From Eubacteriales bacterium (GTDB lineage Bacteria > Bacillota > Clostridia > Saccharofermentanales > UBA5734), in NCBI GenBank assembly GCA_028685755.1, contig JAQUDJ010000004.1:20035-75340 (forward strand): DNA of 55,306 bases, in the 5' to 3' direction. Of the stretch, positions 8,903 to 47,972 are shown piece by piece. Below the pieces are notes generated by a model that ran no database searches, had not been told where the DNA came from, and was given only the letters and a program-made list of their open reading frames with translations. Made by a program: the position numbers and the translations under genes. The stretch's first letter is position 1. Every line of letters starts with the position of its first letter.

Positions 8903-8926
8903 CAGCAAGACGTTTCATGATAAAAT
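8899..8926 (+). promoter_or_regulatory. promoter of tRNA-Thr
   Basis: Consensus TTGACA (8899-8904) and TAAAAT (8921-8926) with a 16-nt spacer. The -35 overlaps the mtaD stop codon. The predicted start, about 8933, is 8 nt before the tRNA. Confidence 0.8.
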
Positions 8927-8940
8927 AAACAAGGCAAAAC

Positions 8941-9015
8941 GCCGCTGTGGCTCAGGGGTAGAGCAATTCACTCGTAATGAATAGGTCGTGGGTCCGATTC
9001 CCACCAGCGGCTCCA
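8941..9015 (+). tRNA. tRNA-Thr (anticodon CGT)
   Basis: Complete cloverleaf. The acceptor GCCGCTG pairs with CAGCGGC; the D-stem is GCTC/GAGC, the anticodon stem ATTCA/TGAAT with loop CTCGTAA (anticodon CGT at 8973-8975), and the T-arm GTGGG/CCCAC with loop TCCGATT. CCA is encoded at 9013-9015. Reads codon ACG. Confidence 0.95.
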
Positions 9016-9019
9016 GCCG

Positions 9020-9067
9020 AAAAAACCACTTTGCAGTAGATTATATCTACAAGTAAAGTGGTTTTTT
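9020..9067 (+). terminator. terminator after tRNA-Thr
   Basis: AAAAAACCACTTT (9020-9032) pairs perfectly with AAAGTGGTTTTTT (9055-9067); an inner GTAGA/TCTAC stem extends the hairpin. The T-tract is part of the 3' arm and A-tract of the 5' arm, so it could work in both directions. Confidence 0.85.
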
Positions 9068-9082
9068 GCATATCTGGTAGCG

Positions 9083-9103
9083 TAGCGAACAAAAATAGCG
9101 AAC
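9083..9103 (+). repeat. direct repeat TAGCGAAC x2 upstream of copZ-like gene
   Basis: TAGCGAAC occurs at 9083-9090 and 9096-9103, 13 bp apart, followed by overlapping TATGCT boxes at 9108 and 9113 that could serve as a -10. No good -35 was found. It is a possible operator for the small metal-binding gene at 9155; it does not match the CopY consensus I know. Confidence 0.35.
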
Positions 9104-9154
9104 GGTTTATGCTATGCTTAAAAGACAAAACCATCATGACAAAGGAGAATAGCG

Positions 9155-9382
9155 ATGAATTCTATCTTATTAAAAGTCGGGGGCATGACCTGCCAACATT
9201 GCGTCAAACACGTCACAGAAGCGCTTCAAGAATTACCGGGTGTCGTTGCCGTATCAGTTGATTTAGTTTCAGGTAAGGCGACCGTTGAAATCGAAGAAGC
9301 CTATTTTAATATGGATGAAGCTGCCGAAGCGATCGCGGATGCAGGATATGATTTCCTTGGACAACTCGAACCGTTGTCATAG
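9155..9382 (+). CDS. CopZ-like heavy-metal-associated domain protein
   Basis: A 75-residue single HMA domain with the metal site GGMTCQHCVKHV (C13 and C16) near the N-terminus, followed by the beta-alpha-beta pattern of ferredoxin-like metallochaperones. Such proteins bind Cu(I) and pass it to a copper P-type ATPase. A good AAAGGAGA binding site precedes the ATG. No copper ATPase or CsoR/CopY regulator is adjacent, so it stands alone here. Metal specificity (Cu rather than another soft metal) is inferred from the MTCxxC motif. Confidence 0.88.
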   Translation: MNSILLKVGGMTCQHCVKHVTEALQELPGVVAVSVDLVSGKATVEIEEAYFNMDEAAEAIADAGYDFLGQLEPLS

Positions 9383-9443
9383 TGCACAAAAACGCAATAC
9401 ACTATTGTGATCAATGCACAAACACTGTGTAAATTCACCGAAA

Positions 9444-9511
9444 TGTCAATAAAATGACAGGGAATATTTGAGATTTTCGTCAATTGAATTGAAAAATGAC
9501 TGCGATATAAT
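9444..9511 (+). promoter_or_regulatory. promoter with upstream palindrome for the 85-residue small gene
   Basis: TTGAAT (9484-9489) and TATAAT (9506-9511) with a 16-nt spacer. Transcription would start near 9518, leaving a leader of about 100 nt before the ATG at 9621. A TGTCA-N6-TGACA palindrome at 9444-9459 lies just upstream and could bind a regulator. The rest of the 238-bp gap (9383-9620) shows nothing else clear. Confidence 0.6.
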
Positions 9512-9620
9512 GAAAATGCAAACGAAATTAGCAGTTCAACGGACTGTTTAGCGTTTGACCAAATGAGTAAATGAATTGATGAATGTCAACAAACAAATAT
9601 CCTTAAGGAGGATACAGACC

Positions 9621-9878
9621 ATGGGCCGTGCATTTAACATGAATAATATTGATGTGAAAAATTTTCTCAAGGCGCTCGATAATTGCAAAGGTGACGTCAT
9701 GCTGGTCACAGCAGAGAACGATCGTTTCAATCTGAAGAGCAAACTTAGCCAATTAGCGGGTGTTATCAATCTTATCGAAGGGGGTCGAATTCTCGACGCC
9801 AAGATCTATTGCGATAACGCCGAAGATGAATCCTACTTGTTCCGCTTGAATTTGTTTGGCGAAACAACCGCTGAATAA
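9621..9878 (+). CDS. conserved small clostridial protein of unknown function
   Basis: 85 residues: MGRAFNMNNIDVKNF, then CKGDVMLVTAENDRFNLKSK (about residues 20-40) and a hydrophobic LAGVINLIEGGRI stretch. It resembles short clostridial proteins with the pattern KGxVxLVTxEGDRLNLKSKL that databases often misname polyA polymerase; no nucleotidyltransferase motif is visible and I assign no function. Start chosen at 9621, where AAGGAGG lies 9 nt upstream. An ATG at 9576 in the same frame has no ribosome binding site. It has its own promoter (9484-9511) and terminator (9933-9965), so it is a monocistronic unit, which hints at a high or independently controlled level. Confidence 0.75.
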   Translation: MGRAFNMNNIDVKNFLKALDNCKGDVMLVTAENDRFNLKSKLSQLAGVINLIEGGRILDAKIYCDNAEDESYLFRLNLFGETTAE

Positions 9879-9932
9879 TTCACCTTTCCAGACCGCTAAC
9901 TTTTTGATCAAGCCTTTTCAAACCGCCATTAT

Positions 9933-9965
9933 TGCAAATCAGAGTAATCTGATTTGCATTTTTTA
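9933..9965 (+). terminator. terminator of the small-gene unit
   Basis: GCAAATCAGA (9934-9943), loop GTAA, TCTGATTTGC (9948-9957): a perfect 10-bp stem followed by about six T. Confidence 0.92.
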
Positions 9966-9974
9966 TAGCCACTG

Positions 9975-10003
9975 CTGTCAGAGACCAGATAATTTGGTAC
10001 TAT
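9975..10003 (+). promoter_or_regulatory. promoter predicting a leaderless thpR-like mRNA
   Basis: CTGTCA (9975-9980), 17-nt spacer, TACTAT (9998-10003) preceded by TGG (extended -10). Only 6 nt separate the -10 from the ATG at 10010, so the transcript should start at or next to the start codon. No Shine-Dalgarno is present. Confidence 0.55.
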
Positions 10004-10009
10004 TTAACA

Positions 10010-10546
10010 ATGGATTATGCGTTGATAGCTTGTTTTGAATCGGTAGGCGATTACAAAGTCCGTCGCCTCATGCGCCATTTGGCGGAGAATAATGTGAATG
10101 ATATCTATGAGCAATTCGGCTTCAAGCCGCATATCACGCTCACTGAGTTTTCGACGGATAATTTTTCGGCAGTCTGTGATTTAATCAATTCTCTAGCAAA
10201 TCGATTAGATTCAGTCGATGTGCGTTTTTCAAGTCTCGGGATTTTTCCTGGTCAACAAGGTGTTTTCCATTTAGTACCGACGATCAACGAATCCCTTTTG
10301 GCGATGCAACGCAGCGTGCGCACCGCACTTGCACCATTTTGTCAGGATTTTGCGCCATTTTACGAAGAAAAAGAATGGGTACCGCATTGCACGCTCGTTT
10401 TAGAGATGGATCCGCTCGAATTACCTCGAGCCTATGCGGTCATGCTTGACCAATTCCAACCTTTTGACACCCGACTCATTTCACTAGAGATCATAACGTG
10501 TTGTCCATTTCGCACCGAATTACATGCTGATTTTAGTCAATCTTAA
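10010..10546 (+). CDS. 2'-5' RNA ligase / 2H phosphoesterase family protein
   Basis: 178 residues with the two HxT motifs that define the 2H phosphoesterase superfamily: PHITLTEF (near residue 40) and PHCTLVLE (near residue 126). Members (LigT/ThpR, YjcG) act on 2',3'-cyclic phosphates or 2'-5' linkages in RNA; the in vivo substrate here is unknown. The N-terminus MDYALIACFE fits the first beta strand of the fold, so the start is probably right although there is no Shine-Dalgarno and the predicted promoter lies immediately upstream (leaderless candidate). ridA follows 18 bp downstream and is likely cotranscribed. Confidence 0.82.
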   Translation: MDYALIACFESVGDYKVRRLMRHLAENNVNDIYEQFGFKPHITLTEFSTDNFSAVCDLINSLANRLDSVDVRFSSLGIFPGQQGVFHLVPTINESLLAMQRSVRTALAPFCQDFAPFYEEKEWVPHCTLVLEMDPLELPRAYAVMLDQFQPFDTRLISLEIITCCPFRTELHADFSQS

Positions 10547-10564
10547 CCGATAGAGGAGTTTGCT

Positions 10565-10939
10565 ATGAAAATTATTTATACAAAAAATGCCCCTGAGCCG
10601 ATTGGACCGTATTCACAAGCTGTTATTGCTAATGGCCACTTGTACACATCTGGCCAAATTGGCCTCAATTCGATGACGGGCGAATTGGCTGGTCAAGACA
10701 TAGAAAGTCAAACCAAACAGGTCCTAATCAATTTAGCTGCTGTGCTCGAAGCTGCAGGTTCATCACCTGCCAAAGTCATCAAGACAACGATCTTTTTGCA
10801 GGATTTAGCTGATTTTGGAGTTGTTAATGGCTTGTACGGCTTGTTTTTTGAACCACACAAGCCGGCCCGATCGACTATTCAAGTCGCGGGGTTGCCTAAA
10901 GGGGCAAAAATTGAGATTGAGTTGATTGCAACGATTTAA
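10565..10939 (+). CDS. ridA: RidA family enamine/imine deaminase
   Basis: 124 residues matching RidA (YjgF/YER057c/UK114) throughout: IGPYSQAVIANGHLYTSGQI at the start, FLQDLADFGVVN in the middle and ARSTIQVAGLPKGAKIEIE at the end, including the arginine that binds the substrate carboxylate. RidA hydrolyses reactive 2-aminoacrylate-type enamines/imines released by PLP enzymes. GAGGAG lies upstream of the ATG. The stop codon falls in the first copy of a 20-bp tandem duplication that carries part of the downstream terminator. Confidence 0.95.
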   Translation: MKIIYTKNAPEPIGPYSQAVIANGHLYTSGQIGLNSMTGELAGQDIESQTKQVLINLAAVLEAAGSSPAKVIKTTIFLQDLADFGVVNGLYGLFFEPHKPARSTIQVAGLPKGAKIEIELIATI

Positions 10940-10975
10940 ACTGAACGAAAGCGTCTTAAAATGAACGAAAGCGTC
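10936..10975 (+). repeat. 20-bp tandem duplication at the ridA 3' end
   Basis: TTAAACTGAACGAAAGCGTC (10936-10955) is followed immediately by TTAAAATGAACGAAAGCGTC (10956-10975), one mismatch. The first copy contains the ridA stop codon; the second encodes the last residues of the convergent MFS gene and the 5' arm of the terminator. Confidence 0.9.
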
Positions 10976-12476
10976 GGAAGATCCGGCGCTTTTTTTCGTC
11001 AAAATAGGATTGCCCTGCGGCATTTGCTTCAGCGACAAAAGCGCGGAATGACATGGCAGTCGGCTCACTCAAGTTGCGAGCGAAAACGAGTAGGGTTATC
11101 ACACGTAGCGTAAACGAAATCATGAGTAGGACATGGAAGGGATTCATGATTTGGCCACGGAAAAAGGTCCATTTTGCCTGTAATAAAAAATCTTTCAACA
11201 CATCGGACAAAAAGCCGCCGAGCATAATTGCAGGAACGAACCCTAACAATGACATCGCGACGTTTTTCATTGCGAGATAGGTGCTGCGAGCCTCGTGTGG
11301 TGCTAAAAAGATCGCTAAACTCATGATGGCCAATTCAATCCCGATATTAAATGTCCCTGAAAGCATGTTAAGTGGATAAACAAACCAATTTGAATTGGGT
11401 GTCGTAAACATCCACGAGAGGGGCAGTATAGTTGAGATCCCGCACGACAAGAGTAATATCGGGCGAAAGCCATAGCGGTCGAAGGCTTGGCCAATTTTTC
11501 GCAAAAAGAGAATTGTGGCGATTGCCGGGATGATTTGCGTCATTAAAGTCATTTGACCGAGTGAAAAATGCAAGGTGTTTAGCATGTAGACGTTGTAATA
11601 CGGTCCGGATATTTGCAATGAAAAATTCCAAAAGATCGCAAAGAGTAAATAAGCACGGTATTGTTTGTGGTTCAAGGGCGCTAAAAATGCTTTGAAGGAG
11701 AAAGCGGTCTTTGTTTGTTTTTTCCCTGGGTGATACCAAGGCAAATAGGCTTTTTCTGGGGGTCTAACTTGAAAATAAAAGGCGATGTCAATCAAACCAA
11801 AAAGGGCGGCCATGCCAAAGAAAAATGTGTATTTAAAGGCCCAACCATCAAGTAGGGATAAAAGTTGGGACATAATCAGTGCATAAAAAAGCATCGCAAC
11901 GGTAAATATCATTTGCCGTGTGCTAAAGTACCGTCCTTTGATTTCACTCGGGATCATGGCGCCAAACCAGGTGTTGAGGGCAGAGTCGGCAATCCAATTA
12001 AAGGACGACATCAGGATAATCACAACGACAACGACGGTGTATGCAGAAGCGGTGCTCATTTGATGTGAAAAGAGTGGCAAGATCGCTAAAACGAAATAGA
12101 GCGTTTTGGACAGGGCAGCAAAAATGATAAAGGACGTTTTGATCTGGCCAAAGCGATTAATAAATAGGGTAAACGGTATTTGAATCAGGACTGTGATGAA
12201 GGGTAGTGTGAGAATCAGGCCATAGGCGCTGTCACTGATCCCAAGATGATTCTTGAGATAGGCTGTAAAGAGCGGTGAGGCACCGGGGTAGCCTGTAATT
12301 ACAAACAGGACAATTCCAAAAACAATTGAGAGAATCGCACCCCGCAAGTCACGCCGAGTTGGCTGATCGAGCATCATGCCATAGCTTGAGCGCATCTCAT
12401 GTGGCGCTGTTTCGGTGTGATTATCTTCTAACGATTGTGTCGGTAAAGCAGCGTTTCGATCAAGCGGGAATTTCAT
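10956..12476 (-). CDS. MFS transporter, substrate unknown
   Basis: 506 residues with about twelve hydrophobic segments, starting after a 45-residue polar N-terminal tail (first helix about GAILSIVFGIVLFVITGYPG). INRFGQIK between helices 2 and 3 and IGQAFDRYGFRP in the second half resemble MFS loop motifs. The C-terminus is a basic tail (KKRRIFRRFRSF). I cannot assign a substrate. The start has an AAAGGGGG binding site and an extended -10 box. The gene is divergent from the ECF sigma operon and convergent with ridA, whose terminator it overlaps; it is a single-gene unit. Confidence 0.85.
   Translation of the reverse strand: MKFPLDRNAALPTQSLEDNHTETAPHEMRSSYGMMLDQPTRRDLRGAILSIVFGIVLFVITGYPGASPLFTAYLKNHLGISDSAYGLILTLPFITVLIQIPFTLFINRFGQIKTSFIIFAALSKTLYFVLAILPLFSHQMSTASAYTVVVVVIILMSSFNWIADSALNTWFGAMIPSEIKGRYFSTRQMIFTVAMLFYALIMSQLLSLLDGWAFKYTFFFGMAALFGLIDIAFYFQVRPPEKAYLPWYHPGKKQTKTAFSFKAFLAPLNHKQYRAYLLFAIFWNFSLQISGPYYNVYMLNTLHFSLGQMTLMTQIIPAIATILFLRKIGQAFDRYGFRPILLLSCGISTILPLSWMFTTPNSNWFVYPLNMLSGTFNIGIELAIMSLAIFLAPHEARSTYLAMKNVAMSLLGFVPAIMLGGFLSDVLKDFLLQAKWTFFRGQIMNPFHVLLMISFTLRVITLLVFARNLSEPTAMSFRAFVAEANAAGQSYFDEKKRRIFRRFRSF
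10968..10996 (+). terminator. ridA terminator inside the MFS coding region
   Basis: AAAGCGTCGGA (10968-10978), loop AGA, TCCGGCGCTTT (10982-10992) with one G-T pair, then a run of T to 10996. It lies within the last codons of the convergent MFS gene. Confidence 0.85.
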
Positions 12477-14194: not shown

Positions 14195-16966
14195 TTGAAC
14201 CCAAAACTGATGCTGATTGATGGCAACAGCTTAATTAACCGGGCATTTTTTGGTTTAGCTGGTCGGAGCCGCTTGACTGCACCCGATGGCACGCCGACTG
14301 GTGCGCTTTTTGCGTTTATCAATATGTACTTGCGGTTTTGCGATGAATTAGGTCCGGATAAAGTCATTGCGGCATTTGATCGCAAAGAACCGACGTTTAG
14401 GCACGCCCTATATGATGGTTACAAGTCAACGCGTAAGGGCATGCCCGATGATTTGGCTGCTCAGATGCCGATTTTAAAGAAACTGGTCGGTTTGCTAGGC
14501 ATTGGCCAAATTGAAATGCCTGGTTACGAAGCGGATGATTTAATAGGAACCCTCGCTAAGACTGCTGCGGCAACGGGCTTTGACGTCGTGATCCTAACTG
14601 GTGACAAAGATAGTTTTCAGTTGGTTGATGACCACATTTCAATCTGGCAACCGGTCACGAAAACCGGCAAAACCGAAGTGCAAAAATATGATTTTGCAAG
14701 TATCGTCGAACGCTATGGGATAAGACCGGAACAATTTGTCGATTTGAAAGCCCTGATGGGTGATCCGTCGGACAACATTCCAGGTGTTCGTGGTATCGGC
14801 GAGAAGGGTGCGATGGATTTGATTGCCCAATTTGGCAGTTTAGATGCATTGTATGCGCAGATCGATCAGGTCAAAGCGACTCTAGCTGTTAAACTGCGGG
14901 AAAGTCGTGAAATGGCCTATTTGTCACAAACCTTGTCACGAATCAATTGTGACGTTCCATTAACCGTTTCCCTGCAAGACTTAAACGGTCTAGAAATGGA
15001 TCGAGCCGGGCTTAAAGCGGCGTTGATGGAACTAGACTTCCGCAGCTTGATCAATCGCCTAGGCTTAACAAATGAAAACGGACTAACACAAGACCAACTA
15101 GTACCGCAAGAAACGTTGTTAGTAGAAGCTAGTGATATCAGCAGCTTCGTGATCGCACTTGAACAGGCCCAAAAGAGCCAAGATGTGATGGCCTGGGTCA
15201 TCGCTCCAGACCACTCGTTCCGTTGGCAGTTGGCAAGTCGGGATCCCTTAGCTGTTCAGACTGTTGCGCCGGACCATTTTAGTGCCGCCTGGGAAAATCT
15301 CGTCAAATCAGGCATTAGCACTATTTGTTACGACTACAAGAGGTCATTACGTCAATATCAATTAATGCCGCTAAGAGGTCCAATTTACGATGTGGTTGTA
15401 GCAGCCTATCTCTTGAATCAGCTTGAAGGTAAACCGGACTTAGAGCGCCTGTATCAACGAGCGACTAACCAATCCTGGCCGTGGTCGATTATCCCAACGC
15501 AAGATGTATCACTAGCACTGACAGCGCTTGCATCGCCGACTGGTGAAACTTCAGCTACTCAAGCAACGCGTAAATTTGTGCAACAGGATCTGTTCTCGAT
15601 AGCTGATACGGTTGATTCACTACAAATACCTGAACAAGTCCAGTCAATCCGCGCTGCAGTCCTCGAAGAAACACCCGTCGCCGTTATTGCAATACAACGG
15701 ATGGCTCAAGCCCAAAAAAAGGCAATTGATGAGCGTGGGATCAGTCGCTTGGCGTATGACATCGAACTGCCGTTAGCTGGCATTCTCGCACAAATGGAAT
15801 TAAAGGGATTTTCGATCGATCAGACTGTCTTAGCGGATTTATCTGAATCGATGCAGCTCCGGATCGACGCCTTGCAAAATGACGTTTATGCCTTGAGTGG
15901 CAAAACCTTTAATCTCCAATCACCCAAACAGTTAGGTCAAGTTCTGTTTGAACATTTGGGACTCTCAACGGGTAAAAAGCGGACGGGTGGTAATTATTCA
16001 ACTGATTCTGAAGAACTCGAACGTTTGATGGACCAACACCCGGTTATAGCACTCATTATCGAGCATCGGTTACTTGCCAAACTGCGTTCGACATTTGTCG
16101 AAGGCTTACGCAAAGCGATCGATCCAATTGATGGACGGGTACATACGACTTTTAATCAGGTCTTAACAGCAACGGGCCGATTGAGTAGCACGGATCCTAA
16201 TTTGCAAAATATTCCGATTCGCTCGGAACAAGGAAATAAAATTCGTTCAGCATTTGTTGCTGCGCCCGGGTTTGTATTACTCGATGCCGATTACTCGCAG
16301 ATTGAATTACGCTTGCTAGCCCATTTGGCCCAAGATCCTGCGATGTTATCAGCATTTAATCGTCATGAAGATATCCATATGAATACGGCATGTCATATTT
16401 TCAACTTACCCCCCGAACTCATCACAACTGGGCAACGTTCAATTGCCAAAACGATGAATTTTAGTATTGTTTATGGGATCAGTGATTTTGGCTTAGCCCG
16501 TGATTTGGGCGTGTCGTTTAAGCTCGCCCATGAATATATCGAAGGCTATAATCAACAGTACCCGCATGTTCGCAGTTATCTAGATGGCTTAGTCAAAAAA
16601 GCGTATGAAACTGGATATGTCGAAACCTTGTTTGGTCGGCGCCGCTTTTTACCGGAATTACAATCGGCCAACCGTAATTTGCGCCAATTTGGCGAACGGG
16701 CGGCGATGAATACACCTATCCAAGGGACGGCTGCGGATTTGATAAAGCTTGCGATGGTTCGAACCCAAAATCTATTCGATGAAGCAGGTTTAACATCACG
16801 TCTCGTGCTTCAAGTCCACGATGAATTGATTGTCGAAGCGCCCTTAGCTGAAGCAGATCAGGCTGCCGACTTGCTCAAGCTTGCGATGGAAAATGCGTTG
16901 CAGCTGGATGTGCCGCTGATTGCCGAGGTCCATCAAGGTCAGCGATGGAGCGACTGTAAGGACTAA
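14195..16966 (+). CDS. polA: DNA polymerase I
   Basis: 923 residues. The 5'-3' exonuclease domain (about 1-290) shows LMLIDGNSLINRAFFG, YEADDLIGTLA, LTGDKDSFQLV and GDPSDNIPGVRGIGEKGA. The middle domain (about 300-510) lacks the DxE exo I motif, so proofreading is predicted to be absent, as in Taq and Bacillus Pol I. The polymerase domain has motif A DADYSQIELRLLAHLAQD, motif B RSIAKTMNFSIVYGISDFGL and motif C QVHDELIVE. It fills gaps in repair and removes Okazaki primers. TTG start with GGAGG 8 nt upstream, inside the anti-sigma gene, so it is probably translated from the ECF operon mRNA. coaE follows after 58 bp. Confidence 0.97.
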   Translation: MNPKLMLIDGNSLINRAFFGLAGRSRLTAPDGTPTGALFAFINMYLRFCDELGPDKVIAAFDRKEPTFRHALYDGYKSTRKGMPDDLAAQMPILKKLVGLLGIGQIEMPGYEADDLIGTLAKTAAATGFDVVILTGDKDSFQLVDDHISIWQPVTKTGKTEVQKYDFASIVERYGIRPEQFVDLKALMGDPSDNIPGVRGIGEKGAMDLIAQFGSLDALYAQIDQVKATLAVKLRESREMAYLSQTLSRINCDVPLTVSLQDLNGLEMDRAGLKAALMELDFRSLINRLGLTNENGLTQDQLVPQETLLVEASDISSFVIALEQAQKSQDVMAWVIAPDHSFRWQLASRDPLAVQTVAPDHFSAAWENLVKSGISTICYDYKRSLRQYQLMPLRGPIYDVVVAAYLLNQLEGKPDLERLYQRATNQSWPWSIIPTQDVSLALTALASPTGETSATQATRKFVQQDLFSIADTVDSLQIPEQVQSIRAAVLEETPVAVIAIQRMAQAQKKAIDERGISRLAYDIELPLAGILAQMELKGFSIDQTVLADLSESMQLRIDALQNDVYALSGKTFNLQSPKQLGQVLFEHLGLSTGKKRTGGNYSTDSEELERLMDQHPVIALIIEHRLLAKLRSTFVEGLRKAIDPIDGRVHTTFNQVLTATGRLSSTDPNLQNIPIRSEQGNKIRSAFVAAPGFVLLDADYSQIELRLLAHLAQDPAMLSAFNRHEDIHMNTACHIFNLPPELITTGQRSIAKTMNFSIVYGISDFGLARDLGVSFKLAHEYIEGYNQQYPHVRSYLDGLVKKAYETGYVETLFGRRRFLPELQSANRNLRQFGERAAMNTPIQGTAADLIKLAMVRTQNLFDEAGLTSRLVLQVHDELIVEAPLAEADQAADLLKLAMENALQLDVPLIAEVHQGQRWSDCKD

Positions 16967-17024
16967 AAGTAACATTTGACTTACCCACTGTTGATTGAAC
17001 TGACAATCTGGAGGACTTTTACTG

Positions 17025-17714
17025 ATGTTTCTTATAGGCATAACCGGGGGAATTGGCTGTGGCAAATCAACGGTTGCCCGACTCTGTCGTGATGCTGGAT
17101 TGGCGGTCATTGACGCTGATGAAATTTCCCGCGAAGTCACATTGCCTGGTGGAACAGCAATTGCCCCTATTATTGAGAAATTTGGCAAAACGATGGTCAA
17201 TACTGAAGGTGGACTTGATCGCAGTAAAATGGCCAAATTAGCCTTTGGTGATCGTAAAGTCCTCGATCAATTGAGCCAGATTATTCATCGCGAAGTTATC
17301 ACTGAAATGAAGCGACGGATTGATGGCCATGTCCAGAAAAAAACCAAAGCCCTTGTATTAGACGTGCCAATTCCGGTCAAACAAGGCTTCCGCGACACGG
17401 TCGACCAAGTTTGGGTTGTCTGGGCTGATGAAAATGTCCGCATTGATCGCTTGCGTGGACGTGGCGTAACCGAAGAAGAGGCGCGCCGGCGCATGGCGAT
17501 GCAAATGACGAAAGATGAATATGAAGAAATTGCCGATCGAATGATCGATAATAATCAAGATTATGTGCAGTTAGTGGATCAAGTTGAAGCGCTGTTAAAA
17601 CAGGAGCTTGGTAATCGCGGGATTCGCTTCGAATCGCTTCAGAAAACGGACGTTTTAGCTGAGAAAATTGTCTCTGCAGAGGAAGATAAAGCGGACGTGA
17701 TGACCGATGAATAA
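17025..17714 (+). CDS. coaE: Dephospho-CoA kinase
   Basis: 229 residues with the P-loop GITGGIGCGKST (about 5-16), DADEISREV, and VLDVPIPVKQGF as in CoaE, and the lid-like RGRGVTEEEARRRMAMQM. It phosphorylates the 3'-hydroxyl of dephospho-CoA, the last step of coenzyme A synthesis. GGAGG precedes the ATG. A C-terminal tail of about 30 residues (LQKTDVLAEKIVSAEEDKAD) extends beyond the usual 200. The polA-coaE order is common in Firmicutes. The stop overlaps the next start by 8 bp. Confidence 0.95.
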   Translation: MFLIGITGGIGCGKSTVARLCRDAGLAVIDADEISREVTLPGGTAIAPIIEKFGKTMVNTEGGLDRSKMAKLAFGDRKVLDQLSQIIHREVITEMKRRIDGHVQKKTKALVLDVPIPVKQGFRDTVDQVWVVWADENVRIDRLRGRGVTEEEARRRMAMQMTKDEYEEIADRMIDNNQDYVQLVDQVEALLKQELGNRGIRFESLQKTDVLAEKIVSAEEDKADVMTDE

Positions 17715-18144
17715 TAAATCGATAATCCCCGAAGCGCCCCAAAAAACAGCTTTGTTGATTTTGCTTTTCATTCAATTTGTCGCAACGCTGGTGACGCTTG
17801 TCGTGGAGGGACTTCAAACGAATTCTCTATTCTCGATTCGGGCGTGGCTTGGTATCAGTATAACGGTGACCTTATTAGTTATCGATCTCTCATGGTTCAT
17901 GTATGCTTGGCTTAATCGTGTGAATAACGTACAAAAAATGGCACTGCTGCGCGTTCAACCAGCTGTGGCTTGGCTGATTTATCATAGTGCTGTTTTGCCA
18001 ATCATTTTACTGACTGATCGACTGACAAACTTGCAAACTGCTTCCCTGATCGGCGTGCATGTCGCATTGCTCGTTATGGGATTATTACCGATTGGACTCA
18101 TGTTTTGGCTTGATCGATATTTGGTCAGAAAATTCAACGTTTAA
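17707..18144 (+). CDS. small four-helix membrane protein, unknown function
   Basis: 145 residues with four predicted transmembrane segments: ALLILLFIQFVATLVTLVVE, LGISITVTLLVIDLSWFMYA, WLIYHSAVLPIILL and HVALLVMGLLPIGLMFWL. No family recognised. Its ATG overlaps the coaE stop by 8 bp, so it is translated with coaE. It ends 4 bp before the 3' end of the convergent ychF; no clear terminator lies between them. Confidence 0.7.
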   Translation: MNNKSIIPEAPQKTALLILLFIQFVATLVTLVVEGLQTNSLFSIRAWLGISITVTLLVIDLSWFMYAWLNRVNNVQKMALLRVQPAVAWLIYHSAVLPIILLTDRLTNLQTASLIGVHVALLVMGLLPIGLMFWLDRYLVRKFNV

Positions 18145-18148
18145 CAAC

Positions 18149-19240
18149 TTAAACGTTGAAACGGAAGAGCACGATATCGCCGTCTTGCATGATGTATTCT
18201 TTGCCTTCCGAACGGACGAGCCCTTTTTCTCTCGCGTTGGCATACGTGCCACAAGCCATTAAATCACTGTAATTAACAATTTCTGCCCGAATGAAACCGC
18301 GTTCAAAATCAGAGTGGATTTTGCCGGCTGCTTGTGGTGCTTTGGTGCCCCGTTTGATCGTCCAAGCCCGGACCTCAGTTGGGCCGGCTGTCAAGAATGA
18401 CATCAACCCTAAAAGGTGATAACCAGCTTTGATGATTTTGTCGAGGCCAGATTCTTGGAGCCCTAAATCAGTCAAAAATAAGGCGCGTTCTTCGTCATCG
18501 AGAACGGAAATTTCCTCTTCAATTTTGGCGCTAATCGTGACCACTTCGGCGTCTTCAGTTGCCGCGATTTCCCTGACTTTTGCCACGACTGCTGGCTCTG
18601 TTCCTGCTAAGGAATCTTCAGAAATATTGGCCACATAGAGGACTGGTTTAATCGTCAGCAAGAAGAGATCTCGCAAATAGACAATTTCATCCTCGTCAAA
18701 CTTCAATGTGCGGGCACATTGACCGGATTCGAGACAAGCGAGAATTTTTTCTTGAACTTCAAGTTCAGCCTGGAATTTTTTGTCGCCACCCTTGAGCATT
18801 TTACGGGTTTTGTCGATGCGGCGTTCCATGTATTCCATGTCACTGAGTATCAATTCTAAGTTAATCGTTTCGATGTCGCGAGTAGGGTCTGTTGCCCCGT
18901 CGACATGCATGACATTTTCATCTTCAAAGCAACGGACGACATGAACAATTGCGTCCACCTCGCGAATATTGGCAAGAAATTTGTTGCCGAGTCCTTCACC
19001 TTTACTCGCCCCACGGACGAGACCGGCAATATCCACAAATTCGATGGTCGCTGGGGTGTATTTATCAGGGTTGTACATGTCAGATAATTTGTCGAGTCTT
19101 GGATCCGGGACCGCAACCACACCGACGTTCGGATCAATCGTACAGAATGCGTAATTTGCGACAGCCGCACCGGCTTTGGTGATGGCGTTAAATAGGGTGC
19201 TTTTGCCGACATTGGGCAATCCAACGATACCTAATTGCAT
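18149..19240 (-). CDS. ychF: YchF/OLA1 family P-loop ATPase
   Basis: 363 residues matching YchF from end to end: G1 [19 protein letters not shown], the switch region with [20 protein letters not shown], a coiled-coil insertion (about 130-200), and the C-terminal TGS domain ([20 protein letters not shown], then [11 protein letters not shown]). The family prefers ATP over GTP, binds ribosomes and is linked to oxidative and stress responses. The gene is on the minus strand with AGGAGG near the ATG and its own promoter. Confidence 0.97.
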
Positions 19241-37208: not shown

Positions 37209-38008
37209 CAGATATTCGATTGGGCGATTACCTAAACCAGATCGATCAAATTATCCCACTGAATTTCGCTGAGTCATGGGATAAAGTCGGGTTATTGATT
37301 GGTGATCCAGATTCAATAGTCACGGCTATCGTTTTGACGCTCGATATCACCGAAAAGACAATCGAATTAGCAGAGGCTAATCAAGCGAATTTGATCATTG
37401 CCCATCATCCGATTATTTTTTCACCAATAGGATCCCTCCGCGAAGATAATGCGGAACAATCACTCATTCGCACATTAATTCACAAGGACATCGCTGTTAT
37501 TGCTTTACATACCAATTTGGACGCCGTTTCAGGAGGCACGGCTGACTCGTTGGCCGATGCACTTGAGCTGTCCGAAATTTCTCGGTTTGTTTTTGCACCT
37601 TTAGTCAATCGACCTGAATATGGGCATGGTCGTGTTCTTGAACTGACGGACCCTCTCCAACTAATTGATCTCAAAAAACTGACAGCGCAACGCTTGCAAA
37701 GCAGTGGCGTACGCATCAATACAGATCGAGATTTAGCTGTTCAACGAATAGCAGTTTTCCCTGGATCGTTTGATGAAAGCTGGATCACGCAACTTAACGA
37801 ATTTGAAATAGATGCCATCATCACGGGTGAACTCAAACACCATGTCGGTCTAATGCTTGCCGCTCGCAATATTGCAGCACTCGATACCGGCCATGATGTC
37901 AGTGAACGTGTTGTTTTGCCACGGCTTTTGCATCAATTGCATGCTTTGGCACCGGATTTAGCCTTTGCTGTCGACTTTGGCTTCGATTATAATAAGATGA
38001 CTTTCTGA
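37205..38008 (+). CDS. Nif3-like dinuclear metal center protein
   Basis: 267 residues of the NIF3/YqfO family: IIAHHPIIFSP, ALHTNLDAVSGGT, ITGELKHH and a late GHDVSERV supply the His/Asp/Glu ligands of a dinuclear metal site in a hexameric toroid. The insert domain of the longer YqfO form is absent. Sometimes called GTP cyclohydrolase I type 2, but the physiological role is unclear. Its last codons (FDYNKMTF and stop) overlap the promoter -10 and P1 helix of the RNase P RNA gene. Confidence 0.9.
   Translation: MTDIRLGDYLNQIDQIIPLNFAESWDKVGLLIGDPDSIVTAIVLTLDITEKTIELAEANQANLIIAHHPIIFSPIGSLREDNAEQSLIRTLIHKDIAVIALHTNLDAVSGGTADSLADALELSEISRFVFAPLVNRPEYGHGRVLELTDPLQLIDLKKLTAQRLQSSGVRINTDRDLAVQRIAVFPGSFDESWITQLNEFEIDAIITGELKHHVGLMLAARNIAALDTGHDVSERVVLPRLLHQLHALAPDLAFAVDFGFDYNKMTF
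37965..37993 (+). promoter_or_regulatory. rnpB promoter inside the nif3-like gene
   Basis: TTGCTG (37965-37970), 17-nt spacer, TATAAT (37988-37993). Predicted start 38000-38001, which coincides with the base of the RNase P P1 helix. Confidence 0.65.
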
Positions 38009-38354
38009 GTAAGCTGGACAACCGCGGGCGCAGTGCCGAAAGGCCGCGCGTGAGGAAAGTCCGGGCTCCATAGGGCAAAGGTGCCGGGTAACTCCCGGTG
38101 AAGGCGACTTTAAGGATAGTGCAACAGAAATAGACCGCCGGTCTTCGGATCGGTCAGGATGGAAAGGCGAGGTAAGAGCTCACCAGCAGTCTGGCGACAG
38201 ACTGGCTCTGTAAACCCCACCTGGAGCAACACCGTGGAGAGACATTTTGTGGCCCGCAAGTCTCGGGGAGGTGGCTGGAGCTGATCAGAAATGGTCGGCC
38301 TGGATAGATGGTTGTTCAAGACAGAACCCGGCTTATAGGCTTACTCAGAAAGTC
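37999..38354 (+). ncRNA. rnpB: RNase P RNA (bacterial class A)
   Basis: The catalytic RNA of RNase P, which trims tRNA 5' leaders. Conserved core elements are present in order: GAGGAAAGTCCGGGCTC (from 38052), ACAGAAATAGACCGCC (from 38124), GGTAAGAGCTCACCAGC (from 38171) and GACAGAACCCGGCTTA (from 38320). The ends GACTTTCTGAGTAAGC (37999-38014) and GCTTACTCAGAAAGTC (38339-38354) pair perfectly as a 16-bp P1, and complementarity runs outward with few mismatches to about 37986/38367. The nif3 stop codon (38006-38008) lies inside P1. The exact 5' and 3' ends are inferred. Confidence 0.93.
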
Positions 38355-38412: not shown

Positions 38413-39585
38413 TTGAAAGCAGAAAGTTACTTGTCTCGTGGCGTTTCGCCGACGAAAGACGACGTCAAAAAGGCAGTTTCCAACCAATCCAAAGGCCTAT
38501 ACCCGGGCTCATTTTGTAAGATCATCCCCGATCTTGCCGGTGATCCTGATTTTTGTTGTGCAGTCCATGCTGATGGTGCCGGCACTAAGTCGTCAGTCGC
38601 ATATCTGATGGCTCAGGAAACGGGCAATCCGAAATGGTATCGCGGGATCGCGCAAGATTCGCTCGTCATGAATACCGATGATTTGATTTGCATCGGGGCA
38701 ACAACGGATTTCAAAATTTCTAATACAATCGGCCGCAATGCCCATCGCATCGATGCTGCAGCATTAGCACAAGTCATCGGTGGCTATGATGCGGTCATCG
38801 ACCAGCTCGCTGAATATGGCGTTGCCATTGAAATGACGGGTGGGGAAACAGCAGACGTTGGTGATTTAGTTCGGACGATAATCTGCGATTCGACTGTTGT
38901 TGTGCGTCTGCCACGGGCCGAAGTGATCAGTGCAGCTAACATCAAACCTGGTCAAGTGATCGTTGGTTTATCATCGTCTGGTCAAACAACCTATGAATCA
39001 GTCGAAAATAGTGGCATTGGATCCAATGGGTTGACCGGTGCACGCCATTTAATATTACACAAAGACTATTTGACCCGTTACCCGGAGTCTTGCTCGGAAA
39101 CATTGCCTGAGGACAAAGCTTATTGTGGACATTTTCATTTGATGGACCACCTGCCTGGCTCTTCATTGACTGCTGGCGAAGCATTGCTATCACCAACCCG
39201 CACCTATTTACCGGTTGTTCGTGAAATGCTAAAGCTGTATCGTTCATCGATCAGTGGCATTATCCATTGCACAGGCGGCGGTCAGGTCAAATGCAAAGAC
39301 TTCGGCCATGGAATCCGTTACATCAAAGATAATCTTTTCCCAACACCCGCCATCTTTGCCGCAATTCTTGACGCGGGTGAAGTCGGTGCTCAGGAAATGT
39401 ATCAGATCTTCAACATGGGACATCGTTTAGAAATCTATTGTGATGAGGCAACTGCAGCCGGAATAATTGCGCTATGCGCAGACTATGAACTTGGCGCGCA
39501 AATCATTGGGCGTACCGAGCAATCAAGCAAAACAGGAGAGAACGAGGTTGTGATTATTGATCGTGACCAGACCTTCACCTGGTAA
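38413..39585 (+). CDS. purM: Phosphoribosylformylglycinamidine cyclo-ligase-like (long form)
   Basis: 390 residues of the PurM/AIR synthase superfamily: SYLSRGVSPTKDDVKKAV, HADGAGTKSSVAYLMAQETG, DSLVMNTDDLICIGA, TGGETADVGDLVRT, SPTRTYLPV, CTGGGQVKCKDF and MYQIFNMGHRLEIY. PurM makes aminoimidazole ribotide in purine synthesis. It is about 45 residues longer than the usual bacterial PurM and looks like the long form I know from Bacteroidetes. No other pur gene is adjacent. TTG start with GGAGG 5 nt upstream. The gene stands alone between rnpB and the rpsO promoter. Confidence 0.8.
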   Translation: MKAESYLSRGVSPTKDDVKKAVSNQSKGLYPGSFCKIIPDLAGDPDFCCAVHADGAGTKSSVAYLMAQETGNPKWYRGIAQDSLVMNTDDLICIGATTDFKISNTIGRNAHRIDAAALAQVIGGYDAVIDQLAEYGVAIEMTGGETADVGDLVRTIICDSTVVVRLPRAEVISAANIKPGQVIVGLSSSGQTTYESVENSGIGSNGLTGARHLILHKDYLTRYPESCSETLPEDKAYCGHFHLMDHLPGSSLTAGEALLSPTRTYLPVVREMLKLYRSSISGIIHCTGGGQVKCKDFGHGIRYIKDNLFPTPAIFAAILDAGEVGAQEMYQIFNMGHRLEIYCDEATAAGIIALCADYELGAQIIGRTEQSSKTGENEVVIIDRDQTFTW

Positions 39586-42612: not shown

Positions 42613-42690
42613 CGGGGTGTAGCTCAGTTTGGCTAGAGTGCTTGCTTGGGGTGCAAGAGGTCGCCTGTTCGAGTCAGGTCACTCCGACCA
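42613..42690 (+). tRNA. tRNA-Pro (anticodon GGG)
   Basis: Acceptor CGGGGTG/CACTCCG (one G-U), D-stem GCTC/GAGT, anticodon stem CTTGC/GCAAG with loop TTGGGGT (anticodon GGG at 42648-42650), T-arm GCCTG/CAGGT with loop TTCGAGT, discriminator A, CCA encoded at 42688-42690. Confidence 0.95.
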
Positions 42691-42697
42691 CTAAAAG

Positions 42698-42726
42698 ACC
42701 GTTGAGATTTACGCTCAGCGGTTTTT
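42698..42726 (+). terminator. terminator after tRNA-Pro
   Basis: ACCGTTGAG (42698-42706) pairs with CTCAGCGGT (42714-42722) with one G-T pair, then a T-run. Confidence 0.85.
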
Positions 42727-42746: not shown

Positions 42747-42755
42747 TGTTACAAT
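42747..42755 (+). promoter_or_regulatory. extended -10 promoter of the GH2-like gene
   Basis: TGTTACAAT at 42747-42755 (TGn + TACAAT) with a weak -35 (TTGCTT at 42725-42730, spacer 19). Predicted start about 42762, 30 nt before the ATG. GGAG at 42783-42786 is the ribosome binding site. Confidence 0.5.
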
Positions 42756-42791
42756 AAGTAAGATTCATTTAATTAAAACGACGGAGCCACC

Positions 42792-45700
42792 ATGCCATCT
42801 CGAATTTTTCCCGGGCGCCAGAACCGGCCGGATTGGAATAATCTTAATTGTCGCGAGCGCAATCGTTTCCCGCGACATGCCTATATGACACATTACCCGG
42901 ATCAACTGACCTGTGAAAACGCGCTCGATAACAATCGGCGTTATCTTTCGCCACATATCCAGTTGCTCAACGGATCTTGGGATTACAAATTATTTGAGAC
43001 CGTTGCCCAAATGCCGGAAAACATATTCGCATATCGCACTGGCTTTGATGCGATTGAAGTCCCTGCGAGTTATTCGATCAGCCGTTTAGTGCAACGCAAG
43101 CATCATCAAGTCCTAAACTGGCCTTTTCCGGTCAATCCACCGTATATTCCAGAAGATATTCCGGTTGGTGTTTATCACCGATGCGTCCAATTCGAACAGA
43201 ATTGGGGGAACTTACGAAAGCGGCTTGTATTCCATGGCGTGATGTCAGCCTATCACGTGGTCGTCAACGGCCGGATCGCCGGCTATGCTCAAAACGGATT
43301 GATGACGCATGAATTTGATGTCACGAGTCTTGTACATGATGGCGTGAATGAACTTTTTGTCCTTGTTTATCCTTTTTCAGCAGCGAGTTATTTAGATGAT
43401 GCTGGGTTCGGATTGCGTTCAGGGATTGTTGGGGACGTTTATATCGAAGCTGTTTCGACAGTGTCTCTGGTTGATCTTGCCATTCAAACAACGCAATTAA
43501 AAGCTGATGTGCAGGCATGGAATCTAGCACTCGACATCAACGTTATTTCATATCGCGTCGCCAAAGAATCCTTGCATGTGAGAATCACGCTCAAAAAGGA
43601 TGGCGAACTCCTTTCTTTCGATGAAATTCCCCTATCAGTTGTCGCTGAGGCTGATGGGATTGATCACCCCGTTCCGAGTCTTCTCGATGAGCCATACGAT
43701 AAAGCGGTTCAGCGCGTTCTCACCGGTTCAAAATCGATCGAACTCGACCACATCCTACCTTGGTCAGATGAAACACCAGAACTTTATGATCTTTTTTTGA
43801 CCTGTGTCGATGCTGCCGGTCGAGAATATGGCTGTGTCCACCAATCTGTCGGGTTTCGTGAACTAAAACAAATTCAAGGTGTTTGGCAGCTCAATGGCCA
43901 ACCTTTAAAACTCTTCGCGATTCGTTATCAACCTCAGCTCAATGCTTTTCCGAATCGTGAAAATCTGTCACATCACGTGCGTGAACTGCGCATGATTCGT
44001 CAACAACACTTAAATACTGTCGTGTTACCAGGCATGGCGATTGATCCACTGTTCTTTGAACTGTGCAATCATTTTGGTGTATTTGTCATTCAAGATAATG
44101 GGATCGGCACGTTGTCAAAATCCTGGCTACAGGATCAAATCCAGCCAACCAAACCGATCAGTCCGAAAGAAACGCAATTGCAAATGGCTTGGGAACACGC
44201 AATTGATGATCGGATCACATCGCAAATACACCGTGATCAAAATCAAGCCTGTTTGCTTGGTCATGTGATGGCGGATTCAATTTTTGAATGGGTTAAATCG
44301 ATCGAACAAAGATCAATCGATTCGCTTACCACCAAATTCACCATATTAGATCAAGCGATTGATTTATTAGGTGCTGGGCCAGGTGATTTGAGCAAAACGC
44401 TTGAAGCAATCCAAAATCATGCGACTTGCGCAGGCCTCGTTTGTGGCCATTGGGAGACGGTTCGAAACGGTGCTCATTCTGCCAAGGATAAGCGCTTTGC
44501 TGGTTCACTAGGTGTATTGCGCGCTTCTATCAATGCGTTAAGTATTCAGGCACTCGATCTTGCGAACGGTGTTATTACCATACAAAACAAGCAAAAGTTT
44601 CAGAATTTACAAAATATTCGCTTGCATTGGCAAGTCCTCCGCAATGGCATTTTAGCTGAAGCGGGTGAACTGAATTGTCCAGAACTAAAACCACGCGACA
44701 TCACTCAATTAACTATTGAATATGGACCAGTAAACTTCCGTGATGGCGCAACTTACCGCTTGCAAGTGATAGCTAGCGTCATTGACGCAACGTTGTGGCA
44801 GACAGCTGATTCAATTATTTTGACCTGGGATGGGTTAATTACCGCCGCGAACGATTTTCGAGATCCCTATTTACAGGCCATAAGACCTTTGATCAATGGC
44901 CAACGCCAAAAACTGCGTCTCGATCAAGATCGACACCTTCTCGTTGTTTCAGGTCCGCGCTTTTGGATTGTCTTCAATCGCATATCTGCCATGTTAGAAA
45001 GTTGGCGCTGTGGCGATCAAGAATGGCTTGCTTTCGCCCAAACTACCCATGCAGCCCATCGTGGAAGTCTGGGTCAACCGATTATTTTTTGGCGGCCGTC
45101 ACTTGCTCAGGATTCAAGTTATCTCGAAAGCTGGCTAAATGCTGGCCTCAACCAGCTTGTACAAACTGTCGATGAGGTCACGCATACCTGTGATGGAGCT
45201 GTCGCAGAAATAGTCGTACAGAGTCGCTATGGACCAATTGGCCAGAAAGCCCTCATACAGGTCCGAACAATCTATAAAATAGCTGATGACGGCCAAATGA
45301 CGATCCAAGCTGATTTACTAGATTCCGGCACGGTCCAACCCGAATGGCTGCCACGCTTTGGATTTCGCTTATTTCTACGAAAACAATATGATCGTGTCAT
45401 CTGGTCTGGCTTAGGACCTGACCCGGCTTGGCCAGGACATTTATCAACAAATCTCCCGGGTCAATATGTCCAAGCACTTGATTCCATGATGTCATCAACA
45501 CCATTAGAAATTAAAGAATATGCCCCACATGCTGAGACGAATTGGCTTAGTTGTATTGATCAGAAAGGCAATGGATTATTGATTGAAAATAGTCAGCCGT
45601 TTAGCTTCCAAGTTCGCGATTACGTTTTAGAAGATATCGCTGAAACGGGAATTGAAACCAAACAACTGCATCAAAATTTAATTGAACTTTGCCTTGATTT

Positions 45701-45839
45701 TTATTACAAACCAGTTGGCAAAAGCGTTCAAAATCAGGACGAAGCTAGTGAAAATTATCAAGAAAAGCTGTTAGAAAAGTCAGTTTCACATGCTGGATTC
45801 TTGACATTGACGCCGTCAACTGGCTTCCCGCCAGTTTAA
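42792..45839 (+). CDS. LacZ-like glycoside hydrolase family 2 protein, probable pseudoenzyme
   Basis: 1015 residues with the full LacZ layout: N-terminal jelly roll (LNGSWDYKLF; PFPVNPPYIPEDIPVGVYHR; VNGRIAGYAQNGL; SGIVGDVYIEA), immunoglobulin-like domains (VGFRELKQIQGVWQLNGQPL), a reduced TIM barrel (about 380-560) and the C-terminal beta domain (from about 715). By eye alignment to E. coli LacZ the acid/base Glu461 in WSLGNES becomes Asp495 in GHVMADS, and the nucleophile Glu537 in ILCEYAHAMGN becomes Gln521 in ILDQAIDLLGA. The metal-site ETHG becomes GTLS (439-442), and NRHEHHP becomes IRYQPQL. Only 26 residues separate the two catalytic positions instead of 76. The frame is intact and has a promoter, ribosome binding site and terminator, so it is maintained. 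It probably binds rather than cleaves; ligand unknown. No signal peptide was seen. Confidence 0.8.
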   Translation: MPSRIFPGRQNRPDWNNLNCRERNRFPRHAYMTHYPDQLTCENALDNNRRYLSPHIQLLNGSWDYKLFETVAQMPENIFAYRTGFDAIEVPASYSISRLVQRKHHQVLNWPFPVNPPYIPEDIPVGVYHRCVQFEQNWGNLRKRLVFHGVMSAYHVVVNGRIAGYAQNGLMTHEFDVTSLVHDGVNELFVLVYPFSAASYLDDAGFGLRSGIVGDVYIEAVSTVSLVDLAIQTTQLKADVQAWNLALDINVISYRVAKESLHVRITLKKDGELLSFDEIPLSVVAEADGIDHPVPSLLDEPYDKAVQRVLTGSKSIELDHILPWSDETPELYDLFLTCVDAAGREYGCVHQSVGFRELKQIQGVWQLNGQPLKLFAIRYQPQLNAFPNRENLSHHVRELRMIRQQHLNTVVLPGMAIDPLFFELCNHFGVFVIQDNGIGTLSKSWLQDQIQPTKPISPKETQLQMAWEHAIDDRITSQIHRDQNQACLLGHVMADSIFEWVKSIEQRSIDSLTTKFTILDQAIDLLGAGPGDLSKTLEAIQNHATCAGLVCGHWETVRNGAHSAKDKRFAGSLGVLRASINALSIQALDLANGVITIQNKQKFQNLQNIRLHWQVLRNGILAEAGELNCPELKPRDITQLTIEYGPVNFRDGATYRLQVIASVIDATLWQTADSIILTWDGLITAANDFRDPYLQAIRPLINGQRQKLRLDQDRHLLVVSGPRFWIVFNRISAMLESWRCGDQEWLAFAQTTHAAHRGSLGQPIIFWRPSLAQDSSYLESWLNAGLNQLVQTVDEVTHTCDGAVAEIVVQSRYGPIGQKALIQVRTIYKIADDGQMTIQADLLDSGTVQPEWLPRFGFRLFLRKQYDRVIWSGLGPDPAWPGHLSTNLPGQYVQALDSMMSSTPLEIKEYAPHAETNWLSCIDQKGNGLLIENSQPFSFQVRDYVLEDIAETGIETKQLHQNLIELCLDFYYKPVGKSVQNQDEASENYQEKLLEKSVSHAGFLTLTPSTGFPPV

Positions 45840-45844
45840 ACAAC

Positions 45845-45874
45845 AAAAAAGCATCTGTTTCCAGATGCTTTTTT
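45845..45874. terminator. bidirectional terminator between the GH2-like gene and tRNA-Trp
   Basis: AAAAAAGCATCTG (45845-45857), loop TTTC, CAGATGCTTTTTT (45862-45874): a perfect stem with A-tract and T-tract, serving the plus-strand GH2-like gene and the minus-strand tRNA. Confidence 0.93.
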
Positions 45875-45879
45875 GGGGC

Positions 45880-45954
45880 TGGCAGGGGAGACGCGATTCG
45901 AACACGCAACCAGCGGTTTTGGAGACCGCTGCTCTACCATTGAGCCACTCCCCT
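45880..45954 (-). tRNA. tRNA-Trp (anticodon CCA)
   Basis: On the minus strand: acceptor AGGGGAG/CTCCCCT, D-stem GCTC/GAGC, anticodon stem GCGGT/ACCGC with loop CTCCAAA (anticodon CCA at 45922-45920), T-loop TTCGAAT, discriminator G, encoded CCA at 45882-45880. Confidence 0.95.
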
Positions 45955-46930: not shown

Positions 46931-47380
46931 ATGACTTCTAATATGCCGATAGTTGAAATCTATACAGATGGTGCTTGTTCAGGTAATCCCGGACCTGGCG
47001 GCTGGGCCGGCATCTTAATCGCAAATGGCTCGGAAAAAGTTGTATCAGGTTATGAAGTTGCGACTACGAACAATCGCATGGAATTAACGGCGGCAATTGA
47101 AGCCTTGAAGCGCTTAAATAAACCATGTAAAGTCCGAGTTTTCAGTGATAGTGCCTATCTCGTTTCAGCATTCAATCAAGGTTGGCTCAAAAATTGGCAG
47201 CGTAATGGCTGGAAAAATGCGGCGAATGATCCGGTTAGCAATCCTGATCTCTGGCAAGCTTTGCTCGCTGCAAGCTCAGCCCACGAGGTCGAATGGATTA
47301 AAGTCAAAGGCCATGCTGACAATGAATACAACAACCGCTGTGATAAAATTGCTGTCGCAGAAATCAAAAATCGAGGATAA
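46931..47380 (+). CDS. rnhA: Ribonuclease HI
   Basis: 149 residues with the four-carboxylate active site: first Asp in EIYTDGACSGNPGPGGWAG, Glu in NNRMELTAAIEAL, Asp in VFSDSAYLVSAF and the last Asp in the NNRCD segment, with the loop GWKNAANDPVSNPDLW and the His of KVKGHADNEYN. It cuts RNA in RNA-DNA hybrids. No strong ribosome binding site; probably translated by coupling to proC. An internal ATG at 46943 is an alternative start. Confidence 0.96.
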   Translation: MTSNMPIVEIYTDGACSGNPGPGGWAGILIANGSEKVVSGYEVATTNNRMELTAAIEALKRLNKPCKVRVFSDSAYLVSAFNQGWLKNWQRNGWKNAANDPVSNPDLWQALLAASSAHEVEWIKVKGHADNEYNNRCDKIAVAEIKNRG

Positions 47381-47384
47381 ACTT

Positions 47385-47972
47385 ATGGGTGATTTGCCCA
47401 CACCTTTTCATGAAGAAACAACGGCGATGGATCAGCATTTTGATGGTCGCGTTTTTAAAGTAGAAGTCCATCAGGTGCGTTTGCCAGATGGCAAAATGGC
47501 TATGCGTGAAATTGTTCGACATAATGGTGGCGCTTGCATTGTAGCTGTCGATGATCAAGAAAACGTCTATCTTGTTTCACAATTTCGCAAACCCTATGAG
47601 CAGGAATTACTTGAATTACCTGCTGGTAAACTTGAAATCGGCGAAGACCCGCTCGTTTGTGCGACGCGCGAATTGATGGAAGAAACCGGGTTACGAGCTG
47701 CATCAATGACTTGGTTAGCGACGGTTTATCCCTCGCCAGGCTATTGTAGTGAAACGTTATCCATTTATTTAGCGACTGAATTGACTTACGGTGAAAACAA
47801 TTTAGATGATGGTGAATTTCTAAGCGTACATGTTTATCCACTCCATGAAGCGTTAGCGATGATTGATCGCGGTGAGATTCGTGATGCAAAAACACAAGTT
47901 GGCTTATTACGTGCTCGGCGCGTATTAGATCAACGACGCGAAAATAGCAGCGAATTACCTTTGGAGGATTGA
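47385..47972 (+). CDS. nudF: Nudix hydrolase, ADP-ribose pyrophosphatase type
   Basis: 195 residues with a perfect Nudix box: GKLEIGEDPLVCATRELMEE followed by TGL. PSPGYCSETLSIYLA resembles the loop after the box in ADP-ribose pyrophosphatases (NudF/YqkG). It hydrolyses ADP-ribose or similar NDP-sugars. Start at ATG 47385, with GAGG 8 nt upstream; the frame is open into rnhA but that part is shadow. ftsK starts 6 bp after the stop, using a ribosome binding site within nudF. Confidence 0.88.
   Translation: MGDLPTPFHEETTAMDQHFDGRVFKVEVHQVRLPDGKMAMREIVRHNGGACIVAVDDQENVYLVSQFRKPYEQELLELPAGKLEIGEDPLVCATRELMEETGLRAASMTWLATVYPSPGYCSETLSIYLATELTYGENNLDDGEFLSVHVYPLHEALAMIDRGEIRDAKTQVGLLRARRVLDQRRENSSELPLED

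Follow-up and report, generated by a model that had tools for sequence, protein, structure and literature searches.

The window, that is, the whole stretch of 55,306 nucleotides that was analysed, encodes a LacZ homologue of 1015 residues in which the LacZ fold is kept and the catalytic residues are gone. This protein, here called pseudo-LacZ, is probably a conserved pseudoenzyme of the LacZ type (GH2) whose outer shell serves for binding. Judging from the aligned sequences and the models, the pseudo-LacZ proteins should be non-catalytic and unable to hydrolyse glycosides. Few enzymes are as well studied as LacZ, and this lineage has kept its whole body and discarded its catalytic centre. Pseudoenzymes are already known, also in other glycoside hydrolase families, and the present one is a GH2/LacZ case. 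A 2025 survey of GH2 gives the catalytic nucleophile as an invariant glutamate (PMC12243196), and no inactive bacterial GH2/LacZ lineage was found in the open-access literature, the coverage of which was incomplete. The family also includes two catalytically intact proteins, a syntenic homologue and a sister, with which the lineage offers a natural experiment on the transition from enzyme to pseudoenzyme.

Fold and domain structure

The open reading frame of 1015 codons was confirmed, and the protein is, as had been read from the sequence alone, a full-length homologue of LacZ. Pfam matches to the window protein are Glyco_hydro_2_N (E=6.7e-24), Glyco_hydro_2 (1.5e-5), LacZ_4 (1.8e-9) and Bgal_small_N (3.5e-24), and the top matches in a sequence search of the PDB and in NCBIfam are beta-galactosidases. 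The NCBIfam model PRK10340 is matched with an E-value of 1.5e-106, yet far under the curated cut-off of that model; genes of this kind could be counted among lactose degraders by similarity-based annotation pipelines. The AlphaFold2 model of the window protein has a mean pLDDT of 80.2 and a pTM of 0.80, and in a Foldseek search with this model LacZ structures rank first. It can be superposed onto E. coli LacZ with a Z-score of 33.7 and an r.m.s.d. of 3.1 over 892 residues, with a sequence identity of 21%. The model of a second member of the clade, from genome G004 (pLDDT 84.4), superposes onto the same structure with a Z-score of 34.9 over 873 residues. Both the Pfam domains and the structural match show the five-domain LacZ architecture in the window protein (Table 1); the domain order is that of E. 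coli LacZ, and the structural match spans the full length.

The third domain departs from this similarity. Strands were counted from the DSSP string of each model, so the numbers are to be read as about six and about five: in the window model, barrel strands are formed by residues 374–378, 409–412, 431–435, 488–492, 518–520 and 548–553 (six, not eight), and in the G004 model by residues 358–363, 392–395, 414–418, 461–465 and 536–541 (five). A complete (beta/alpha)8 barrel is absent in both modelled members. The Pfam barrel profile Glyco_hydro_2_C scores 18.6 bits on the window protein, with a cut-off of 21, and 16 to 66 bits on the pseudo members, in which the aligned part stops at positions 126–163 of 302; the half of the barrel that holds both glutamates in LacZ is thus not recognised. 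On two intact sisters the same profile scores 308.5 and 311.7 bits, reaching position 300. No invariant or nearly invariant column of the clade alignment holds a barrel glutamate, and a concealed alternative pair of acids was therefore rejected; such barrel residues as are invariant are few and mostly structural in type.

Table 1. Features of the pseudo-LacZ locus, in window coordinates.
Feature	Position	Strand	Remark
tRNA-Pro(GGG)	42613..42687	+	left locus boundary
-10 box TACAAT	42750..42755	+	unchanged across five genomes of the genus
Ribosome-binding site core GGAG	42783..42786	+	
Pseudo-LacZ gene	42792..45839	+	1015 aa; fold of LacZ, catalytic residues missing
Domain 1 (residues 1–233)	42792..43490	+	jelly-roll; best conserved part in the clade
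Domain 2 (residues 234–356)	43491..43859	+	
TIM barrel remnant (residues 357–594)	43860..44573	+	about six strands, not eight; Pfam barrel model unmatched in its second half
Codons of Asp495-Ser496	44274..44279	+	replacing Asn460-Glu461 (acid/base)
Codon of Gln521	44352..44354	+	replacing Glu537 (nucleophile)
Domain 4 (residues 595–690)	44574..44861	+	
Domain 5 (residues 691–1015)	44862..45836	+	Bgal_small_N
Clade-specific domain 5 motif (residues 708–745)	44913..45026	+	R709, R714, H715, R723, W725, N729, R739
Inverted repeat flanked by A- and T-runs	45844..45875	.	probable bidirectional terminator; assigned by the scan to the minus strand
tRNA-Trp(CCA)	45883..45954	-	right locus boundary

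Catalytic site and relatives

Catalytic residues were mapped by alignment with E. coli LacZ and with other intact LacZ-type proteins. The sequence-only reading had claimed that both catalytic glutamates and the metal ligands are replaced, and all the residues that it named are indeed replaced in the window protein, where the motifs concerned lie at residues 490–496 (GHVMADS), 518–524 (ILDQAID), 439–442 (GTLS), 377–383 (IRYQPQL) and 195–203 (FSAASYLDD). Its pairing of the nucleophile Glu537 with Gln521 is also that of our alignment. For the acid/base residue it was right about the loss and one position off in register: Glu461 pairs with Ser496, and it is Asn460 that pairs with Asp495.

According to the alignment, the window protein is without N102, D201, H357, H391, E416, H418, N460, E461, Y503, E537, H540, W568, F601 and N604. 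Several of these losses had escaped the earlier reading: N102 has become valine, D201, H391 and W568 have become glycine, and Y503, F601 and N604 are deleted. The metal ligands Glu416 and His418 correspond to glycine and leucine, respectively. Every galactose contact of LacZ that was checked is lost, with substitutes that vary from member to member. The two catalytic positions are separated by 25 residues, versus 63 to 82 in full-length intact relatives; one divergent protein lies outside this range, with 89. The earlier estimate of a shortening by about 50 residues is thus right. E. coli LacZ and pseudo-LacZ thus differ in the glutamates, the metal ligands, the galactose contacts and the barrel, which in the latter has about five or six strands.

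Orthologues were found in other genomes of the same clostridial family. Fifteen full-length or nearly full-length proteins, from genera g1, g3, g4, g8 and g9, lack both glutamates; a sixteenth member, from G022, is cut by a contig end. Recurrence of the substitutions in homologues had been proposed as a check, and the loss does recur, with E461 and E537 gone in all 15 members. None of them has glutamate at the acid/base position, and at the nucleophile position the members other than the window protein have proline, other residues or a deletion. N460, E416, H418 and H540 are gone in all, or all but one, of the 15. No clade member contains an internal stop codon, and all full-length LacZ relatives sampled outside the clade retain both glutamates.

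In the tree, the 15 pseudo proteins form a single clade (SH-aLRT 100), nested with the intact LacZ proteins of the family, which indicates common descent with LacZ. The neighbouring branches, G010 (genus g5) and G012 (genus g6), belong to the same family and have intact active sites. The two members from g4 are the most divergent and still bear the clade signature. The nearest intact relative, the LacZ of G010 (L044:2514-5735), differs from pseudo-LacZ in having kept all catalytic residues and in its Pfam barrel score (308.5 bits, the first of the two scores quoted above); it comes from a single contig of 7 kb, in a MAG with 6% contamination. An order-wide scan at E<=1e-40 gave matches confined to the family, and scanning 84,980 species genomes for a sequence pattern yielded 13 loci, all in Clostridia MAGs (for example Mageeibacillus sp. 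UBA5747 and UBA5734); how far the clade extends beyond the family is judged from this pattern scan and from the order and class searches. A phage origin was rejected, only distant phage matches (about 24% identity) being among the matches listed.

Constraint and possible function

Selection was estimated on relatives of the window gene, because synonymous sites are saturated between the latter and its congeners. The dN/dS ratio (NG86) is 0.127 for the pair G003/G005 and 0.14–0.19 for congeneric pairs of g1. Neighbouring genes in g1 pairs have ratios of 0.03–0.04 (pnp), 0.05–0.09 (purM-like), 0.07 (ftsK), 0.09 (proC), 0.08–0.19 (nif3) and 0.14–0.29 (trmK). Fisher tests against equal rates, performed on the whole gene in two pairs, gave p=1e-90 and 3e-77; for the barrel alone dN/dS is also well under 1 (p about 5e-19 in each of two pairs). 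The comparison of dN/dS across relatives that had been suggested earlier thus indicates purifying selection, at 0.13–0.19. It bears directly on the idea that pseudo-LacZ is a decaying pseudogene before its first stop codon, to which its fast divergence could be attributed (about 40% identity to congeners, versus about 85% for pnp). With intact frames in every member, these ratios and tests, and a conserved promoter and ribosome-binding site, decay is effectively refuted for the relatives measured and is barely credible as an explanation. The earlier view of a maintained, non-catalytic protein holds, with a loss shared by 15 relatives. Among the marks of a pseudoenzyme, descent from catalytically competent relatives, loss of catalytic residues across orthologues and maintenance by selection were found.

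The distribution of constraint over the domains is inverted relative to intact LacZ, having shifted from the barrel to the outer beta-sandwich domains, which selection maintains most strongly. When conservation is compared by domain, the barrel ranks top in 12 of 13 pairs of intact proteins and lowest or second lowest in all 11 pseudo pairs. Of five pairs compared by dN/dS, four likewise have their highest ratio in the barrel and one its second highest; in three pairs, domain 1 is lowest. The pseudo clade, with a mean identity of 36%, has 31 fixed positions that are rare in intact LacZ proteins: 13 in domain 1, four in domain 2, 14 in domain 5 and none in the barrel. The same count in two intact clades, with mean identities of 51% and 40%, gives six and one positions, respectively. 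The fixed set of domain 5 includes the motif residues of Table 1 together with S720, E736, C800, D801 and G802. Eighteen of the 31 residues are also present in the G010 protein, eight in that of G012 and at most seven in other intact proteins. Most of the shell signature therefore predates the loss of catalysis, and the notion that the 31 positions were gained when catalysis was lost was rejected.

The earlier reading had proposed sugar binding, a scaffold or a regulator as the role of the protein. The best fit is an outer shell that acts as a scaffold or binds a ligand. If pseudo-LacZ were instead a lectin or sugar sensor of the cytoplasm, its fold would still bind a carbohydrate, either within domain 1 or within a pocket built anew, and signal its presence. 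Domain 1, which is conserved best, has "sugar binding" in its Pfam name, and the window genome encodes a galactokinase; the name, however, does not demonstrate sugar binding. Binding in the old pocket is weakened by the loss of the galactose contacts and by the variety of their replacements, which form no conserved set. The barrel pocket evolves fast, and no adjoining transporter or regulator gene is conserved at the locus, so that we consider a sensor of this kind unlikely. LacZ is a tetramer, and pseudo-LacZ might be a subunit of an active GH2 enzyme, or regulate one; it would then form mixed oligomers with a catalytic paralogue and tune it. Several genomes of the family do encode an intact LacZ or other GH2 proteins besides. 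However, the window genome (G000, 96.6% complete), in which the pseudo-LacZ gene is present in one copy, and genomes G006 and G008 hold no other GH2 match above cut-off. A GH2 partner is thus not a general requirement; partnership with an active GH2 was rejected as a general role, and the proposal as a whole is improbable.

A new catalytic activity, based on different residues in a remodelled barrel, would agree with the maintenance of the protein and with the purifying selection that the fast-evolving barrel still experiences. It is hard to reconcile with the loss of barrel strands in the models, with the absence of clade-specific positions and of any invariant or nearly invariant glutamate from the barrel, and with the structural type of most of its few invariant residues, and we regard it as very improbable.

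Binding through the outer shell remains the reading that we favour. The protein would be cytoplasmic, as a signal sequence is not apparent, and would fold as a LacZ-like shell that has lost glycoside hydrolysis. The conserved surface of domains 1, 2 and 5, marked by the arginine- and tryptophan-rich motif of residues 708–745, may bind something, candidate ligands being another protein or an anion, whether a small molecule or a polymer. The conserved shell residues could also be structural rather than form one surface patch. More tentatively, we propose that a second, non-hydrolytic function of the LacZ shell, with a putative bound partner, appeared in a LacZ that was still catalytic and, after loss of the barrel, was kept as the sole job of the protein. 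With its intact active site and 18 of the 31 shell residues, the G010 protein is a possible living intermediate.

Locus and origin

The gene order at the locus is PNPase, tRNA-Pro(GGG), pseudo-LacZ, tRNA-Trp(CCA) (on the opposite strand), proC, rnhA, a nudix gene and ftsK. This order holds in g1, g3 and g8, in some cases with extra inserted genes, and the partial contigs of g9 agree with it. The genes that separate pseudo-LacZ from proC vary from genus to genus, and no conserved partner gene was found there. A promoter, a ribosome-binding site and a terminator had been claimed for the gene. The -10 box and the GGAG core are kept in four congeners, which bears out part of this claim; a clear -35 box was not found upstream of the gene in the window. 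The inverted repeat behind the gene is present, although the scan lists it on the minus strand and its role as a terminator is only probable; it probably serves both pseudo-LacZ and the convergent tRNA-Trp gene. Another hairpin (42694-42726) is located between tRNA-Pro and the promoter. As the two hairpins bound the unit, the pseudo-LacZ gene is probably monocistronic.

In G012, an intact LacZ-type enzyme occupies the same chromosomal slot, between the same two tRNA genes. Together with the tree, this is most simply explained if the pseudoenzyme is an orthologue of a catalytic LacZ and not a drifted duplicate; pseudo-LacZ would then derive from an ordinary LacZ sited between tRNA-Pro and tRNA-Trp. 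Glycoside hydrolase pseudoenzymes with which it can be compared are the polygalacturonase-like GH28 proteins of beetles, which are described as having originated by gene duplication beside active copies (PMC6549527), and Klotho, a pseudoglycosidase (PMC10628560). In these, as in pseudo-LacZ, selection has kept a glycoside hydrolase fold after the loss of catalytic residues; they belong to other families and are eukaryotic. The present case differs from that of the beetle proteins in that the orthologue itself was inactivated, in some genomes as the sole GH2 protein.

The slot between the two tRNA genes thus contains an intact LacZ, a pseudo-LacZ or nothing, depending on the genus. In g2 it is empty, with tRNA-Trp and tRNA-Pro about 130–140 bp apart and no LacZ (L145 of G001, 11873-12164; L146 of G002, 11512-11792), and the function is therefore dispensable in these two genomes. 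In g4 the segment is inverted and pseudo-LacZ lies tail-to-tail with PNPase (L046 of G008, 7946-11174; L048 of G009, 15689-18466); in G008 the inversion takes tRNA-Pro along with pseudo-LacZ.

Further features were observed elsewhere in the window. A protein resembling PurM/AIR synthase is encoded at 38413-39585 (+). It scores 112 bits, far under the PurM cut-off of 236, yet its identity within the genus is about 80% and its synteny extends over the family; it is probably not PurM itself. A class A RNase P RNA (38006-38351, +, 282 bits) lies directly between the NIF3-like gene and this PurM-like gene. The open reading frame of the Nudix protein (47145-47972, +) begins inside the RNase H gene; the protein has about 265–275 residues in the genus of the window genome, versus about 180–195 in other genera, reflecting either an amino-terminal extension that overlaps rnhA or a wrongly assigned start.
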